Positions 5,708-25,365 of a DNA stretch of 34,793 nt are shown here, piece after piece. How positions within the stretch are numbered: the first letter of the stretch is position 1; every line of letters starts with the position of its first letter. The translations under genes were made by a program, and so were the position numbers. Source of the stretch: an uncultured Chloroflexota bacterium (lineage in GTDB: Bacteria; Chloroflexota; Dehalococcoidia; Lucifugimonadales; GCA-002694895); the NCBI GenBank assembly GCA_913045935.1, contig CAJWSY010000011.1:1-34793 (forward strand), read 5' to 3'. The notes beneath the pieces were generated by a model, which saw only the letters and a list, made by a program, of their open reading frames with translations, ran no database searches and was not told the origin of the DNA.

Positions 5708-6346
5708 CTATTTACTCTTTTTTTGATTTCTTATTTTATTAGAAGCAAATTCAGATTCAAATACATCTCTAGGTATTTGAATAAACATTTCTTGTAAATT
5801 ATTGGGAATCATCATACTTTCAACATCTATAAATTTATTATCTACTTTTCTTCCTCCGACTATAAATTTTGTTCCTTTTATCTTTAAATTAAATAAACAA
5901 TCGTATATTTCAGAACTTTTATTTATATCATCATAAAATTTGGTATCAAAAAGTCTTACTAAAGTGTCACCTCCAATTAAAAAATCCGAACCAACAAAAA
6001 TTTCTGCTTTTTCAAAAAATGTGGATTTATTTGTTATAAGAACAGGAAACTTTTGGTTAAATTGATTAATTCTTTTAGATAATTCTATTTCTGTTAAATT
6101 TGATTTTGCTACATTGGAAACTGAAATTTCAAAAATTGGTTTTTTATTGCTAAATTGCATTCCATATTTAATAAGATCCAAATGACCAGGATGCAAAGGG
6201 TTAAAACTACCTGGGAAAATCAGGAAATCACTAAAAAATTCATAATCAAAATTCTTTGAACTATAAAAATCCTTTAAATCTGAATTTATATCAAAATAAA
6301 GAAATTTATATTCGTCGTTTATAATTTTTTTTAAATACTCAGTCAC
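5708..6346 (-). CDS. HxGH-type nucleotidyltransferase, partner of CinA-like protein
   Basis: A 212-aa protein with a Rossmann-type nucleotidyltransferase core. The (H/T)xGH signature GSFNPLHPGH is at residues 46-55, and the C-terminal ISSTxIR-type motif is degenerate (SNKIR). It also shows EKAEIFVGSDFLIGGDTL and a KFIVGGRKVD segment. These match, from memory, the C-terminal half of a larger CinA-like plus cytidylyltransferase-like protein known in plants and some bacteria, rather than plain NadD. About 40 N-terminal residues precede the core. The CinA-like half is encoded immediately upstream with an 8-nt gap, so the fused protein appears split here. NMN/NaMN adenylylation is a plausible activity but the substrate is unproven. 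Confidence 0.75.
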   Translation of the reverse strand: MTEYLKKIINDEYKFLYFDINSDLKDFYSSKNFDYEFFSDFLIFPGSFNPLHPGHLDLIKYGMQFSNKKPIFEISVSNVAKSNLTEIELSKRINQFNQKFPVLITNKSTFFEKAEIFVGSDFLIGGDTLVRLFDTKFYDDINKSSEIYDCLFNLKIKGTKFIVGGRKVDNKFIDVESMMIPNNLQEMFIQIPRDVFESEFASNKIRNQKKSK

Positions 6347-6354
6347 AAAATTCC

Positions 6355-6915
6355 TTAGATACTTACTAAACTAACATTATCTAAATCTAAATCTAAACTA
6401 GAAAAATTTAATGAATTATTTAATTGAATAATTTTTAAAACACTAAAACTAATGATAAAATCTTGTTGAGTTCTACTGAATTCATCTGCGATAAATTCTA
6501 TATGATAATTAATTGATTGCTTACCATTGTAAGTTGATATGTAACTACCATCATCAGATCTCTTATGTTTTTTAGTTTTCAAAGAAGAACTTACTGCTAT
6601 TGACAACAGATCATCATTTGATGAATTTAGTAGTGAAAAATCATCAAATTTGTTTTTACTAACTTTCGAAGTTAGTTGCAAATTAACATAGCTAGAAGAA
6701 TTACATTGTGTATAATCATTAATTGCTTTTCTAGAATATGGCATATATATTCCAATTAAATTTTTAGATATTCCTTCTTTATCCAAAAACCATTTAACTA
6801 ATCTTTGGCAAGATCCAAATAAGGAAAAAACAAATTTTTTATCAGAAAAATTTATTTCTTGTATAATTGCTTCCGTTTCTTTTTTTGAAACGTTGTAAAA
6901 TTCGTCATATTTCAT
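6355..6915 (-). CDS. CinA C-terminal-like (PncC-like) domain protein
   Basis: A 186-aa divergent protein resembling the CinA C-terminal domain, a family that includes NMN deamidases. Visible marks are a Gly/Ser-containing segment LFGSCQRLVKWFL (32-44), followed by YMPYSRKAI (58-66), and SIAVSSSL with KTKKHKRSDDGSY further on (about 105-125). The latter corresponds to the family's G-V-T-x-x-L and KRGEH-like stretch. The standard ESCTGG motif of PncC is not present. It is the first gene of the minus-strand operon and is directly followed by the nucleotidyltransferase to which it is fused in other organisms. It may act in pyridine nucleotide salvage or repair, but the family assignment rests on pattern memory and the activity is not established. 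Confidence 0.6.
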   Translation of the reverse strand: MKYDEFYNVSKKETEAIIQEINFSDKKFVFSLFGSCQRLVKWFLDKEGISKNLIGIYMPYSRKAINDYTQCNSSSYVNLQLTSKVSKNKFDDFSLLNSSNDDLLSIAVSSSLKTKKHKRSDDGSYISTYNGKQSINYHIEFIADEFSRTQQDFIISFSVLKIIQLNNSLNFSSLDLDLDNVSLVSI

Positions 6916-10668: not shown

Positions 10669-11502
10669 ATGAAAAGCATAGCATATTTGGGGCCATCAGG
10701 ATCATACTGTGAACAAGCTACTATAACAAAATATCCCGATCAAAAATTATTCCCTATGGCAACTATTCCAGCCGTTATAGAATCCGTTCAGGACGGAATA
10801 ACTGATTATGGTATAGTACCAATTGAAAATAGTATAGAAGGATCTGTTACTTTTACCTTAGATGCATTAATTCATGATTATAAAGTAAATATAAATTCAG
10901 AAATCATGTTAAATATTTCTCACTCACTTATTACAAATAAAATCATCGAGATGAGTAAAATTGAAAAAATTTATTCACATCCACAAGCTTTAGCTCAATG
11001 CAAATTATATTTATCCAAAAACACTCCACAGGCTCAATTGATAAATACCTCAAGTACGTCCGCAGCCCTAAAACAAATCATAGATGATGGAATTACATCG
11101 GCAGCTATAGCACACGCTAGAAATGCCAAACTTAACAACCTGAATATTATAGAAGAAAATATCCAAGATGAAAAAATCAATATCACAAGATTTGTAGTTT
11201 TAGGAAATGAAATTGCTCCAAAAACAGAAAATGATAAAACTTCATTTTGCTTTGATTTTTCAGATATAGACAAACCAGGGCAATTGATAAATGTAATGAA
11301 ATTATTTTCAGACCAAGAAATAAACATTACTAAAATAGAATCCAGACCATCAAAAAAAGAATTAGGTAAATATATTTTTTGGATGGATATAACCGGACAT
11401 ATTGAACAGCAAAAGTTGTCTGGAATATTTGTTCAGGTAAAAAAGATTACAAGTATGTTAAAAATTATTGGTTCTTACCCAGTCGAAACAGAAATAATTT
11501 AA
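10669..11502 (+). CDS. pheA: Prephenate dehydratase
   Basis: Converts prephenate to phenylpyruvate in phenylalanine biosynthesis. This is the stand-alone 277-aa form with no chorismate mutase domain. The catalytic domain begins with YLGPSGSYCEQA (5-17) and contains PIENSIEGSV (51-60). The essential TRF motif is in NITRFVVLG (171-179). A C-terminal ACT domain (about 190-277) carries the phenylalanine-binding ESRPSKK (224-230), so feedback inhibition by phenylalanine is likely. It starts 23 nt after the potassium cluster on the same strand. Its stop overlaps the stop of the convergent gene downstream by 4 nt, leaving no room for a separate terminator. Confidence 0.95.
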   Translation: MKSIAYLGPSGSYCEQATITKYPDQKLFPMATIPAVIESVQDGITDYGIVPIENSIEGSVTFTLDALIHDYKVNINSEIMLNISHSLITNKIIEMSKIEKIYSHPQALAQCKLYLSKNTPQAQLINTSSTSAALKQIIDDGITSAAIAHARNAKLNNLNIIEENIQDEKINITRFVVLGNEIAPKTENDKTSFCFDFSDIDKPGQLINVMKLFSDQEINITKIESRPSKKELGKYIFWMDITGHIEQQKLSGIFVQVKKITSMLKIIGSYPVETEII

Positions 11503-11780
11503 TCTTCTTCATTTCGTTTATTTTTCTTATTAATTAATCTATCTATATCATCAAAAATATCTTTAGAAGGTTCTATTCCAAGATTATCAAGATAATTTCT
11601 TAAAGATTCTATAACATCTAAAGTAGCATCTCTCATATTTAAAGCGAAAAGTTTAATTTTCTCACTTTCAGTTAATTCAGTTTGTTTTAATTTTCTTACT
11701 AGTTTAGGCCCAAGATACATTCCTAAAGCGAATCCTAAAAATAAATTACTTAATTTACTTTGCTTTTTATCATCACTCAT
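11499..11780 (-). CDS. Small protein with one N-terminal hydrophobic segment, YtxH-like
   Basis: A 93-aa protein I cannot assign firmly. It has a charged start (MSDDKKQSK), a short Gly-rich hydrophobic stretch LFLGFALGMYLGP (13-25), then a basic, helical, charged C-terminal part. The plan resembles YtxH-like or gas-vesicle-like small membrane-anchored proteins. Its start overlaps the preceding gene by 8 nt, so it is translationally coupled to the membrane-anchored gene upstream. It is the last gene of the aldolase/MfnB-TusA operon. Its 3' end overlaps the pheA stop by 4 nt. Confidence 0.65.
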   Translation of the reverse strand: MSDDKKQSKLSNLFLGFALGMYLGPKLVRKLKQTELTESEKIKLFALNMRDATLDVIESLRNYLDNLGIEPSKDIFDDIDRLINKKNKRNEED

Positions 11781-12084
11781 TTTTTTTTCTCCTTATCTTT
11801 GCAGACGCTGATTTTGTTGCTTTTTTTGCTTTGTTAGTAGCTTTTTCAATGTCAATAGATTTAAAATATTTGACTATCATTTCTATAGATTTAGAATTTA
11901 TTTTATCAATCGGTGAGACAATATAACCAATTAATGACCAAAGTTTTTGTGAACTATCCACCAAAGAATCAACCTTGGAAAATATCTTATTTAATTTCAT
12001 GTAACTCAAGATCACTAATACAGTTAAAACAATTATAAAGCCAATTATTAATATATCTTTTATTACAGATGTTATTTCTTGCAT
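11773..12084 (-). CDS. Single-pass membrane protein, DUF948-like
   Basis: A 103-aa protein with one strong N-terminal transmembrane helix (DILIIGFIIVLTVLVILSY, about 10-28). An amphipathic segment (KIFSKVDSLVDSSQKLWSLI) and a very basic, Lys/Ala-rich tail follow. This layout is like the DUF948/YtxG type of small membrane proteins, which often neighbour YtxH-like proteins, and a YtxH-like gene does follow with an 8-nt overlap. It lies 9 nt behind the MfnB-TusA gene. The topology probably leaves the basic tail in the cytoplasm. Function unknown. Confidence 0.7.
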   Translation of the reverse strand: MQEITSVIKDILIIGFIIVLTVLVILSYMKLNKIFSKVDSLVDSSQKLWSLIGYIVSPIDKINSKSIEMIVKYFKSIDIEKATNKAKKATKSASAKIRRKKNE

Positions 12085-12093
12085 AAAAACCTT

Positions 12094-13086
12094 TTATGGT
12101 TTTACTAATATCCTTAGATTACCATTACCATCTTTTTGTTGATCCATTATACTGTGATTGTCATTTTTTGCCCATAGCAAAACATCATATGTATTTAACT
12201 CATCAGGAATAATGACTTCTACAATAGATTTACTATCATTCTTTATTTGTTTGGCCAAAGCAGCAATAATTCCTGAACAAGACTTACCTTGACCATCAAT
12301 AATAACGTCACCATTAGAAAAATACTTGTCAGATGTTTTAAATTCATTATCTAAAGATTCTCTGACTTTTAATTCCCCTGATTTTCTTAATTCTAATTGG
12401 TCCTTAAAATGTCTTACTGCTTCCCAATATACTCCTTCATCACGATCACCTTTCGCGCACACAGCTCCTCGAACACCTACTATATCAGGATTAATTCTTG
12501 CTAGTTCATCTAAATCACTTAATTTCAGATGGCCAGATAAAGCAGTACTCAATCCTCTAGATTTTGCCTCTATAACCATTTCTTTTAATTCTTCTTCAGG
12601 CATAAAATCAAAAAGATTACGCCCATCTTTAACTAATGTGTCTATAAGGAATCCATCACATTTACCTTCTACTGCAAGGTCAACCATAAGAGAAGGGTTC
12701 AAGCCGTTTTCATATAGTAAATTATCGGCGAATAAAGAACCAATCAACAAAGTATTAGAACCTTGCAAAGCTTCTCTGCATGCCAATAAAGTTTCAAGAG
12801 CATGATTGTATTCATCATGCATAAAACCAACTTTTACTGAAGTAGCATCTAACAAACCTGCTGCGTGAACTGCCATTGCAACTGTTCCGATTTGATTTGG
12901 AACAACTCCCAAAGTAAGGCTAGAATGAATTGGATCTGGGGCTATAGCTTTAACTTCTTTAAAAGTAACTGGATGCGCAGAGCCCACAAGAGCTTCTTGT
13001 AGATTTTTCACGTCCACAATATCTGCACCACCTTTTATTGCTTGGTGTGCTTCTTTAACGTTTTGTACACTAACTAATAATAACAT
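12094..13086 (-). CDS. MfnB-like (5-formylfuran-3-yl)methyl phosphate synthase fused to a TusA-like domain
   Basis: The N-terminal part (1 to about 235) matches MfnB/DUF556, a TIM-barrel enzyme that condenses two glyceraldehyde-3-phosphates into the furan precursor of methanofuran. Lysines sit where the family's active-site lysines are expected: DVKN (K27), SVKVG (K85) and LVKDG (K153, near the K155 of the archaeal enzyme). VGVRGAVC and GDRDEG near 203-217 are also typical. The C-terminal 75 residues look like a TusA/SirA sulfur-carrier fold. They have IDGQGKSC with C270 at the TusA cysteine position, then VEVIIPDELNTYDVLLWAK, NHSI and a final strand RILVKP. The CPxP motif reads CSGI. The strong AAGGAG site and operon position behind a DapA-like aldolase suggest a pathway, but no product can be named. 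Confidence 0.82.
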   Translation of the reverse strand: MLLLVSVQNVKEAHQAIKGGADIVDVKNLQEALVGSAHPVTFKEVKAIAPDPIHSSLTLGVVPNQIGTVAMAVHAAGLLDATSVKVGFMHDEYNHALETLLACREALQGSNTLLIGSLFADNLLYENGLNPSLMVDLAVEGKCDGFLIDTLVKDGRNLFDFMPEEELKEMVIEAKSRGLSTALSGHLKLSDLDELARINPDIVGVRGAVCAKGDRDEGVYWEAVRHFKDQLELRKSGELKVRESLDNEFKTSDKYFSNGDVIIDGQGKSCSGIIAALAKQIKNDSKSIVEVIIPDELNTYDVLLWAKNDNHSIMDQQKDGNGNLRILVKP

Positions 13087-13098
13087 TCAAGCTCCTTA

Positions 13099-14073
13099 TT
13101 AATTTATATTGAATTTATTTAAATTTTTTAATTGATTTTTCAATTTTGCTTTGTCTGAATTATTCATATCTTTCACAGGCGGTCTTGGACCTCCACTACT
13201 CATACCTACAATTTCACCCCAATATTTACATAGGGCAACTGGTAAAACACCTCCGGCATCAGATACAATTTTCCCCCACCACTCATCTGAAATAGATTTG
13301 ATTTCTTTAATTTCAGAATTATATAAGTTATCATCAATATTGCCATTACAAGCATTTTGAACAAAAGTTGTATAACTATTATTTTCTGGAGTATCAAATC
13401 TCCAATCAGAAGTGTTTGCAAACATCACAGTTTGTTGAAAACCTGATTTTTTTCCCTCCCAAAAAATCCATTCGTCTGGAGTGCTTATAATTGCTTTTTC
13501 TCCAAGATTAACATGAGATTTGATGGATATTTCAGGATTAAAACTTGCTTCTTTAACGCCTACAATGTTTTCTATATTTACAATTTTTTCTAATTCAGTT
13601 TCATCTAGAAGTGTTCCAAATTGAGGAGAATTGTAATACATTATAGCCAAATTAGTTTTACTTGAAATATATTCTACAAAATCAATTACTTGCGAAGCTT
13701 TTCTTGTTGCAAAATAAGGCGCGCCAAGAATTAATAATTCATATCCTATATCTTCACAAAATCTAGCCAATTCTAATATATCTGTTACAGACGTATGTGT
13801 TATATGAGCTGCAACAGGCCAATCATTTGCATGGTCTTTTACTATTTGCATAAGGTTTTTTCTTTCATATGTAGACATGCTCCAAAATTCACCCATTCCC
13901 CATGAGCACCCTGCTCCATTTGAACCTAAACTTTTAACATAATCAATGTTTGACCTAAGTCCAGATTCATCTAATTGCCCTGATTCATCAAAAGGAGTAA
14001 CAAGAGTTGACCATTGTCCGTTTAAAAATTCTTTTGCCCATAATTTTGAGTCTGATTTTTTATAAGAAATCAT
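13099..14073 (-). CDS. DapA/NanA-superfamily aldolase, substrate unknown
   Basis: A class I TIM-barrel lyase/hydratase of the dihydrodipicolinate synthase superfamily, 324 aa. The Schiff-base lysine is in GVKEAS (K174) and the catalytic tyrosine region is IMYYNSP (144-150). The C-terminal GGPRPPV (about 294-300) is also family-typical. The usual GTTGE pyruvate-carboxylate motif near residue 55 is replaced by a segment reading CSWGMGEF, so true DapA activity (lysine synthesis) is doubtful. The region 238-260, rich in Asn/Asp/Tyr, looks like a lineage-specific insertion. It is the first gene of a four-gene minus-strand operon, 12 nt before the MfnB-TusA fusion. A role with that enzyme is inferred from position only. 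Confidence 0.85.
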   Translation of the reverse strand: MISYKKSDSKLWAKEFLNGQWSTLVTPFDESGQLDESGLRSNIDYVKSLGSNGAGCSWGMGEFWSMSTYERKNLMQIVKDHANDWPVAAHITHTSVTDILELARFCEDIGYELLILGAPYFATRKASQVIDFVEYISSKTNLAIMYYNSPQFGTLLDETELEKIVNIENIVGVKEASFNPEISIKSHVNLGEKAIISTPDEWIFWEGKKSGFQQTVMFANTSDWRFDTPENNSYTTFVQNACNGNIDDNLYNSEIKEIKSISDEWWGKIVSDAGGVLPVALCKYWGEIVGMSSGGPRPPVKDMNNSDKAKLKNQLKNLNKFNIN

Positions 14074-24480: not shown

Positions 24481-25365
24481 ATGTCTACCGATAAAGTAAA
24501 ACCAACAGAAAATCTCATCAAAGCTGTAAATTTATATACCAACCGTATGAGAAAATCTCGTAAAGAAAGCATCAAAAATGATTTGTCGTCATTTGTTCAA
24601 TGGCTATCTCAATGTCTAGATAGTAAATCTTACAATGAAGATCAAAATACAAATAACATTGATTTAAATTTGATAGAACCGAGTTTTATCGAGCAATATG
24701 TTCAAATTACTAATGTAAAACATTCAAATTTTAACGCCTCAAAAAAATTAACAGTAGCTAGAGATTTCTTGGGTTTCCTTCATAATCCAGACCCAAATGA
24801 TGAGTCTATAACATTCACAGAATCAAACCTAGGTAATCACATTAGGAACAAGAAAGGTAGAAGAGCGGGTTCACTAAGTTTGAAATCAAGATTGCATGAA
24901 GAAGAATCAATTGAGATATCTCAAGAATACCATGATACTTTGAAAAAAGATTTAGAAGAAAAATTCAAAGAAAGAGAAGAAGTTGTTATAGAAATAAATA
25001 AAGCTGCTGCAGATAAAGATTTCAGGGAAAATGCCCCTTTGGAAGCAGCCAGAGAAAAACAAGGTCTTATTGAATCTCAAATTAAAACCATTGAAGAAAC
25101 TATTAGAAAGTCGGTCATCATCAATACCAAAAAAAATTCCAAGACTAACAAGTTAGCAAAAATCGGATCAAAAGTAACAATGATTCAAGATAAAAATCGA
25201 GTTAAAATCAGTTTGGTATCATCTCCGGAAGCTGATGTGAGTTCCTCAAAAATATCGGTAGATTCACCACTGGGTCAGGCAATAGTTGGTAAAACCGAAA
25301 ATGACGAAGTAATTGTAGAAGCTCCTGCAGGTGAAATGAACTATAAAATAATAAAAATTACTTAA
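24481..25365 (+). CDS. GreA-like transcription factor fused to an integrase-type SAM-like N-terminal domain
   Basis: The 294-aa protein has two parts. Residues about 8-103 resemble the core-binding (SAM-like) domain of tyrosine recombinases (LYTNRMRKSRKESIKNDLSSFVQWL, then FIEQYV and KKLTVARDFLGFL), without a catalytic domain. A basic linker (RNKKGRRAG, 122-130) follows. Residues about 147-294 are GreA-like. A coiled coil carries the tip acids in ADKDFRENA (D180, E183), which place Mg2+ in the RNA polymerase active site for transcript cleavage. The C-terminal FKBP-like domain has ISVDSPLGQAIVGK and EVIVEAPAGE. The protein should therefore rescue backtracked polymerase. The extra domain may bind DNA. 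It follows polA by 19 nt with an AGGAG site. Whether it is the organism's only GreA is unknown. Confidence 0.85.
   Translation: MSTDKVKPTENLIKAVNLYTNRMRKSRKESIKNDLSSFVQWLSQCLDSKSYNEDQNTNNIDLNLIEPSFIEQYVQITNVKHSNFNASKKLTVARDFLGFLHNPDPNDESITFTESNLGNHIRNKKGRRAGSLSLKSRLHEEESIEISQEYHDTLKKDLEEKFKEREEVVIEINKAAADKDFRENAPLEAAREKQGLIESQIKTIEETIRKSVIINTKKNSKTNKLAKIGSKVTMIQDKNRVKISLVSSPEADVSSSKISVDSPLGQAIVGKTENDEVIVEAPAGEMNYKIIKIT

Follow-up and report, generated by a model that had tools for sequence, protein, structure and literature searches.

A furan synthase of the MfnB type with its own TusA-like domain, and a DHDPS/NAL-fold partner encoded directly upstream of it, were identified in the genome of a SAR202 bacterium (Chloroflexota). 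Together with the TusA-like domain as a cysteine carrier, they are proposed to form one unit that makes a compound other than methanofuran, a reading to which a probability of about one half is assigned. The gene pair connects a furan-ring synthase of the kind used for methanofuran both with a TusA-like domain and with a second enzyme, of class I-type aldolase fold. Each of the three components, MfnB, TusA and the NAL fold, has been known on its own. The link of a furan synthase to TusA was not known to be described according to the original prediction, and a literature search with limited coverage of subscription papers agreed, as no paper was found in which PF04476 occurs with TusA, or in which furan synthesis or DHDPS is treated in SAR202. 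The whole stretch of DNA that was analyzed, 34,793 nucleotides in length, is referred to as the window.

The MfnB-TusA gene and its MfnB domain

The open reading frame at 12094-13086, for which the original prediction had named no strand, was found at exactly this position on the minus strand and encodes a protein of 330 aa. It is composed of an MfnB (4-HFC-P synthase) domain (residues 1-236, 12379-13086, minus strand), a variable linker of low conservation (residues 237-259, 12310-12378, minus strand) and a TusA-like domain (residues 260-330, 12097-12309, minus strand). The linker is also modeled with a lower pLDDT of 62-73 per block. Upstream of the start codon, a ribosome-binding-site-like AAGGAG (13092-13097, minus strand) is located within the 12-base intergenic gap to the next gene. 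An assembly artefact as the source of the fusion was ruled out, since the fusion was found again in independent assemblies.

Residues 3-227 match PF04476 (4-HFC-P synthase, also named (5-formylfuran-3-yl)methyl phosphate synthase) with an E-value of 5.5e-54 and 183.8 bits in the Pfam scan, where the cut-off is 22.4 bits. By sequence search, the sole solved relative is MJ1099, the MfnB of Methanocaldococcus jannaschii (PDB 4rc1/4u9p; E 4.3e-39). The AF2 model of the MfnB-TusA protein (mean pLDDT 89) aligns with 4rc1 over 231 residues (Z 35.6, rmsd 1.4 Å), and the MfnB assignment that had been made for the N-terminal part is upheld by both the Pfam match and the fold match.

The three lysines that had been named as characteristic of MfnB were recovered as K27 in a DVKN motif (codon 13006-13008), K85 in a VKVG motif (codon 12832-12834) and K153 in DTLVKDG (codon 12628-12630), all on the minus strand. 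They align with lysines of MJ1099, of which Lys155, the counterpart of K153, is catalytic and Lys27 and Lys85 are active-site lysines. Together with D25, R206, R215 and C270, all three are invariant in 81 homologues, which are 60-91% identical to the window protein. R215, unchanged in 81 of 81 sequences, corresponds to Arg217 in the capping loop of MJ1099, and the motifs around the invariant residues of the domain are likewise unchanged and align with MJ1099. As all tested catalytic positions are kept, the MfnB domain most likely still makes 4-HFC-P, judged by homology in fold and conserved active site.

It is improbable that the domain has come to catalyze a different aldol condensation that yields no furan product. 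Such a drift would agree with the unusual chemistry of the partner described below and with the score of 183.7 bits, which is far under the NCBIfam equivalog cut-off of 341 bits (NF002573), so that by this score the domain is a relative and not a called equivalog. However, a drifted enzyme is hard to reconcile with the invariant D25, K27, K85, K153, R206 and R215 and their MJ1099-aligned motifs, or with the close superposition of the model.

The TusA-like C-terminal domain

Based on sequence, profile comparison and predicted secondary structure, the C-terminal part is in all probability a TusA-like domain that has diverged. In the Pfam scan, residues 262-329 match PF01206 (TusA) with an E-value of 1.6e-4 and 21.9 bits, under the cut-off of 28.6 bits, which was exceeded by one relative (28.8 bits). 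When the C-terminal domains of different genomes were scanned singly, 29 of 29 matched TusA, all with E < 1 and the best with 1.7e-7. The comparison of the domain profile with genuine TusA proteins by hhalign resulted in a probability of 95.5% over 68 columns, the reference consisting of ten proteins, of which nine come from genomes belonging to the same order. In the AF2 model, residues 261-329 are arranged in the order β-α-β-α-β-β with a block pLDDT of 85-90, and C270 opens the first helix, as in TusA. The TusA-like pattern of the original prediction is thereby supported, and a chance resemblance was ruled out by the 29 matches and the profile comparison. The search of the C-terminal profile against solved structures returned nothing at E 1, for which reason less weight is given to the assignment by sequence alone. 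The rows of the fold search with the AF2 model cover almost only residues 1-238, so that the TusA-like part is barely included.

Cys270 (codon 12277-12279, minus strand) is the only cysteine among the last 75 residues and is accompanied by the segment D301-V-L-L-W305-A, both as first described. In the 81 homologues C270 is invariant, as are D301, W305 and H311 at the conserved D, W and H positions of TusA; the sulfur reading, which would have been removed by a variable cysteine, is not removed on that ground. The CPxP motif is absent. In its place stands G-K-S-C-S-G-I, the cysteine being kept and both prolines being gone in all homologues examined, which have A, S or Q at position +1 after C270, G or S at +2 and I or V at +3, whereas the TusA proteins of the same order retain CPxP. 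In TusA proteins, sulfur is accepted by the CPxP cysteine, and helix 1 is capped by the motif (PMC11073785). Because CPxP is reduced to its cysteine, normal sulfur transfer may have been lost along with the prolines, and the domain is no more than a possible sulfur carrier. No sulfur donor or thio-product was found linked to MfnB-TusA. Of the possible sulfur carrier in the original prediction, the TusA-like domain and the invariant C270 stand, while the missing CPxP and the missing link to a sulfur donor speak against it.

The main rival to a carrier role of Cys270 is a structural one, in which the domain has lost its sulfur chemistry and acts only in docking, in oligomerisation or as a lid for the MfnB/DHDPS complex. 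The loss of both prolines from a motif whose cysteine takes up sulfur and which caps helix 1 in TusA proteins (PMC11073785) would be explained by it, as would the lack of a linked sulfur-transfer gene. Nevertheless, a purely structural domain would have no need to preserve a single cysteine where helix 1 begins, and Cys270 is invariant along with D301, W305 and H311 in the 81 sequences of 60-91% identity. A purely structural role is considered possible, though less likely than not.

The partner gene, its neighborhood and the distribution of the pair

Directly upstream on the same strand and separated by 12 bases, a DHDPS/NAL-family gene with a class I aldolase fold was annotated (13099-14073, minus strand, 324 aa). 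In the original prediction this gene was overlooked, though it is the strongest functional clue. It matches PF00701 in the Pfam scan (E 6.2e-25), and the nearest folds to its model (pLDDT 93) are N-acetylneuraminate lyases (TMq 0.76). Of 110 loci, 109 have the partner directly upstream of MfnB-TusA and in the same orientation, a count drawn from two locus sets that overlap partly, with some genomes fetched twice. The lone exception is a UBA1123 MAG (L076, 8953-10966), in which MfnB-TusA has no upstream DHDPS-like gene, due to either loss or misassembly. MfnB-TusA was detected in 34 of 60 relatives, and exactly these 34 contain an orthologue of the partner (47-73% identity); the remaining matches in the 60 genomes are distant paralogues with an identity of about 23-33%.

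In 30 of the 109 loci, one continuous open frame encodes both the partner and MfnB-TusA, joined by a variable linker. The resulting DHDPS-like/MfnB/TusA-like polypeptide of about 700 aa is confined to one clade and appears as one change on a tree of 82 sequences (support 89), so that a single origin of the fused form suffices. All three Pfam domains were called in one such fusion (L031), and in another (L029) the DHDPS and MfnB domains were called and TusA misses the threshold of 0.01. That the partner and MfnB-TusA act on one pathway is strongly indicated by their pairing, their shared presence and their fusion taken together.

In the active site of the partner, Lys174 (GVKEAS; codon 13552-13554, minus strand) at the Schiff-base lysine position, Tyr147 (YN-x-P) and the GE of GxxGE are invariant among 74 homologues. 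In the NAL/DHDPS superfamily, the Ser/Thr pair of G-(S/T)-T-G-E binds the carboxylate of pyruvate. In the partner this motif is replaced by W58-G-M-G-E62 (13888-13902, minus strand), followed by Phe63-Trp64; W58, G61 and E62 are invariant, position 59 is G or N, and M60 is present in 73 of the 74 homologues. The replacement of the Ser/Thr pair by Gly-Met suggests that the substrate is something other than pyruvate, possibly an aromatic compound.

A different role would be that of a KDG/KDPG-type aldolase, by which glyceraldehyde-3-phosphate is fed to MfnB and the furan chemistry stops at 4-HFC-P. The fold, Lys174 and Tyr147 are those of the NAL/DHDPS family, in which KDPG aldolases are included, an archaeal KDG aldolase is among the NCBIfam matches of the partner, and its fusion to a triose-phosphate-using enzyme agrees with channelling. 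But the change from G-(S/T)-T-G-E to W-G/N-M-G-E is found in nearly all of the 74 homologues, whereas the DapA-like paralogues of the same order retain GTTGE, and little likelihood is given to this supply of triose phosphate.

In the wider neighborhood, no functional partner other than the DHDPS-like gene is consistently linked. RecG, FakA, prephenate dehydratase, TrkH/TrkA and UbiA/D/X-like neighbors are syntenic in some members of the group and change elsewhere. Downstream of MfnB-TusA, two small ORFs of 103 and 93 aa (11499-12084, minus strand) are conserved in the genus and not clearly order-wide. Elsewhere in the window, a partial bacterial 23S rRNA gene was identified at the contig end (1-2582, minus strand, 2238.9 bits); the ORFs 699-956 and 1513-1944 lie inside this gene and are spurious. 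Two ORFs of 186 and 212 aa (5708-6915, minus strand), seen in the genus of the window, match the two halves of one protein that in other SAR202 genomes measures about 380 aa and includes a nucleotidyltransferase-like part; the gene is split in this lineage. A GreA/GreB-type elongation factor (24481-25365, plus strand) has about 144 extra N-terminal residues, for which no Pfam family match was obtained.

The original prediction had proposed a search for the same domain pairing in other genomes. When 250 genomes of the order (SAR202, Chloroflexota) were searched, it turned up in 118 of them, corresponding to 52 of 97 genera, and no MfnB without TusA was seen in the 250. The homologues are nearly all full-length; complete matches span residues 1-330, and the few partial ones are explained by contig ends or by one gene in two pieces. 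In the sampled Chloroflexota outside the order no MfnB-TusA was found, and a weak match there was rejected as an ordinary CPxP TusA. Named records with MfnB-TusA are MAGs of the SAR202 cluster, the Dehalococcoidia and the Chloroflexota; one record labelled Actinomycetota is placed within the Chloroflexota clade on the tree. The genome assembly of the window has a size of 1.33 Mb and a completeness of 76%, and the window has a GC content of 31%, which fits the genome-streamlined SAR202 bacteria described previously (PMC11994032). SAR202 bacteria, which are difficult to culture, rank among the most abundant groups in the ocean, and about half of the sampled SAR202 genomes, including streamlined ones, retain the MfnB-TusA unit.

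Proposed function and comparison with known systems

MfnB is known from the methanofuran/methylofuran route of methanogens and methylotrophs (PMC8141765, PMC11365854), which speaks for a role of MfnB-TusA in this biosynthesis for C1 metabolism. In bacterial methylotrophs, MfnB (Orf22) is located within an archaeal-like cluster (PMC8141765), as it likewise is on a Phyllobacterium plasmid, and in neither setting does it lie beside a DHDPS gene. Around the SAR202 MfnB-TusA, no archaeal-like C1 cluster was seen. As had been noted before, the window contains no further recognizable methanofuran gene, and the absence extends to FTR and MCH, two enzymes of the methanofuran/tetrahydromethanopterin C1 route, each found in 0 of 60 relatives with positive controls, although 34 of these carry MfnB-TusA. 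Since FTR and MCH are absent from the 60 relatives, methanofuran synthesis in the carriers of MfnB-TusA is very unlikely, and a role in methanofuran-dependent C1 metabolism was rejected. A furan compound other than methanofuran is likely in SAR202, as the sampled relatives are without the methanofuran C1 pathway.

For the proposed unit of MfnB domain, own TusA-like domain and dedicated DHDPS/NAL-fold partner, the following course is the preferred one. The MfnB domain would convert two glyceraldehyde-3-phosphate to the furan aldehyde 4-HFC-P, as fold and conserved active site indicate. The partner would most likely perform Schiff-base chemistry on this furan aldehyde or on a triose precursor rather than on pyruvate. 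Cys270 may act as a covalent carrier or nucleophile between the active sites, with a persulfide or the aldehyde, bound as a thiohemiacetal, as its cargo. The end product would be a furan-derived compound of SAR202 bacteria other than methanofuran. Homology gives good support to the 4-HFC-P step; the roles of the partner and of Cys270 are hypotheses. More tentatively, the three-domain DHDPS-like/MfnB/TusA-like enzyme could define a new SAR202 route to a cofactor or metabolite that derives from a furan, may contain sulfur and has no relation to methanofuran, in which the proline-less TusA domain would serve as an in-line covalent carrier. The fused three-domain form, being a single gene, is convenient for in vitro testing.

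MfnB-TusA is an MfnB by fold and active site, stands apart from methanofuran synthesis and has a TusA-like domain without CPxP. It resembles MJ1099 over the whole N-terminal 236 residues by fold and in K27, K85, K153/155, R215/217 and the motifs DTxxKDG and GVRGAxC. It differs from MJ1099 by an identity of only about 37%, by the fused TusA-like domain and by its pairing with a DHDPS-family gene, and the searched relatives are without FTR and MCH. With the TusA/YeeD/YedF family (PF01206), the C-terminal domain shares the predicted β-α-β-α-β-β order, a cysteine before helix 1, a D-x-x-G-K-x-C-like start, the D-x-x-x-W-A and H positions and the matches in 29 of 29 homologues, but it lacks both CPxP prolines, scores weakly as a single sequence and is always located C-terminal to MfnB.

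The partner has the fold of the NAL/DHDPS superfamily (PF00701), the Schiff-base Lys174, Tyr147 in YN-x-P, the GE of GxxGE and the D-E pair. Unlike other members it contains Gly/Met in place of the Ser/Thr carboxylate pair as well as the invariant Trp58, Trp64, Trp202 and Phe152, and it is near-obligatorily paired or fused with MfnB. Among plasmids, the MfnB matches stop before the TusA part. On the Phyllobacterium plasmid (L135, 6992-8164), MfnB carries a fused FolB (dihydroneopterin aldolase) domain, and its gene shares a cluster with fae and other archaeal-like genes. In two Streptomyces plasmids (L133, 8001-12263; L134, 7980-12350), the MfnB gene is part of a conserved series with genes for an aldehyde dehydrogenase, an alcohol dehydrogenase and a SAM methyltransferase. 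These operons differ from the SAR202 pair in having neither a TusA domain nor a DHDPS partner, and they resemble it as settings of a bacterial MfnB away from an archaeal-like C1 gene cluster.
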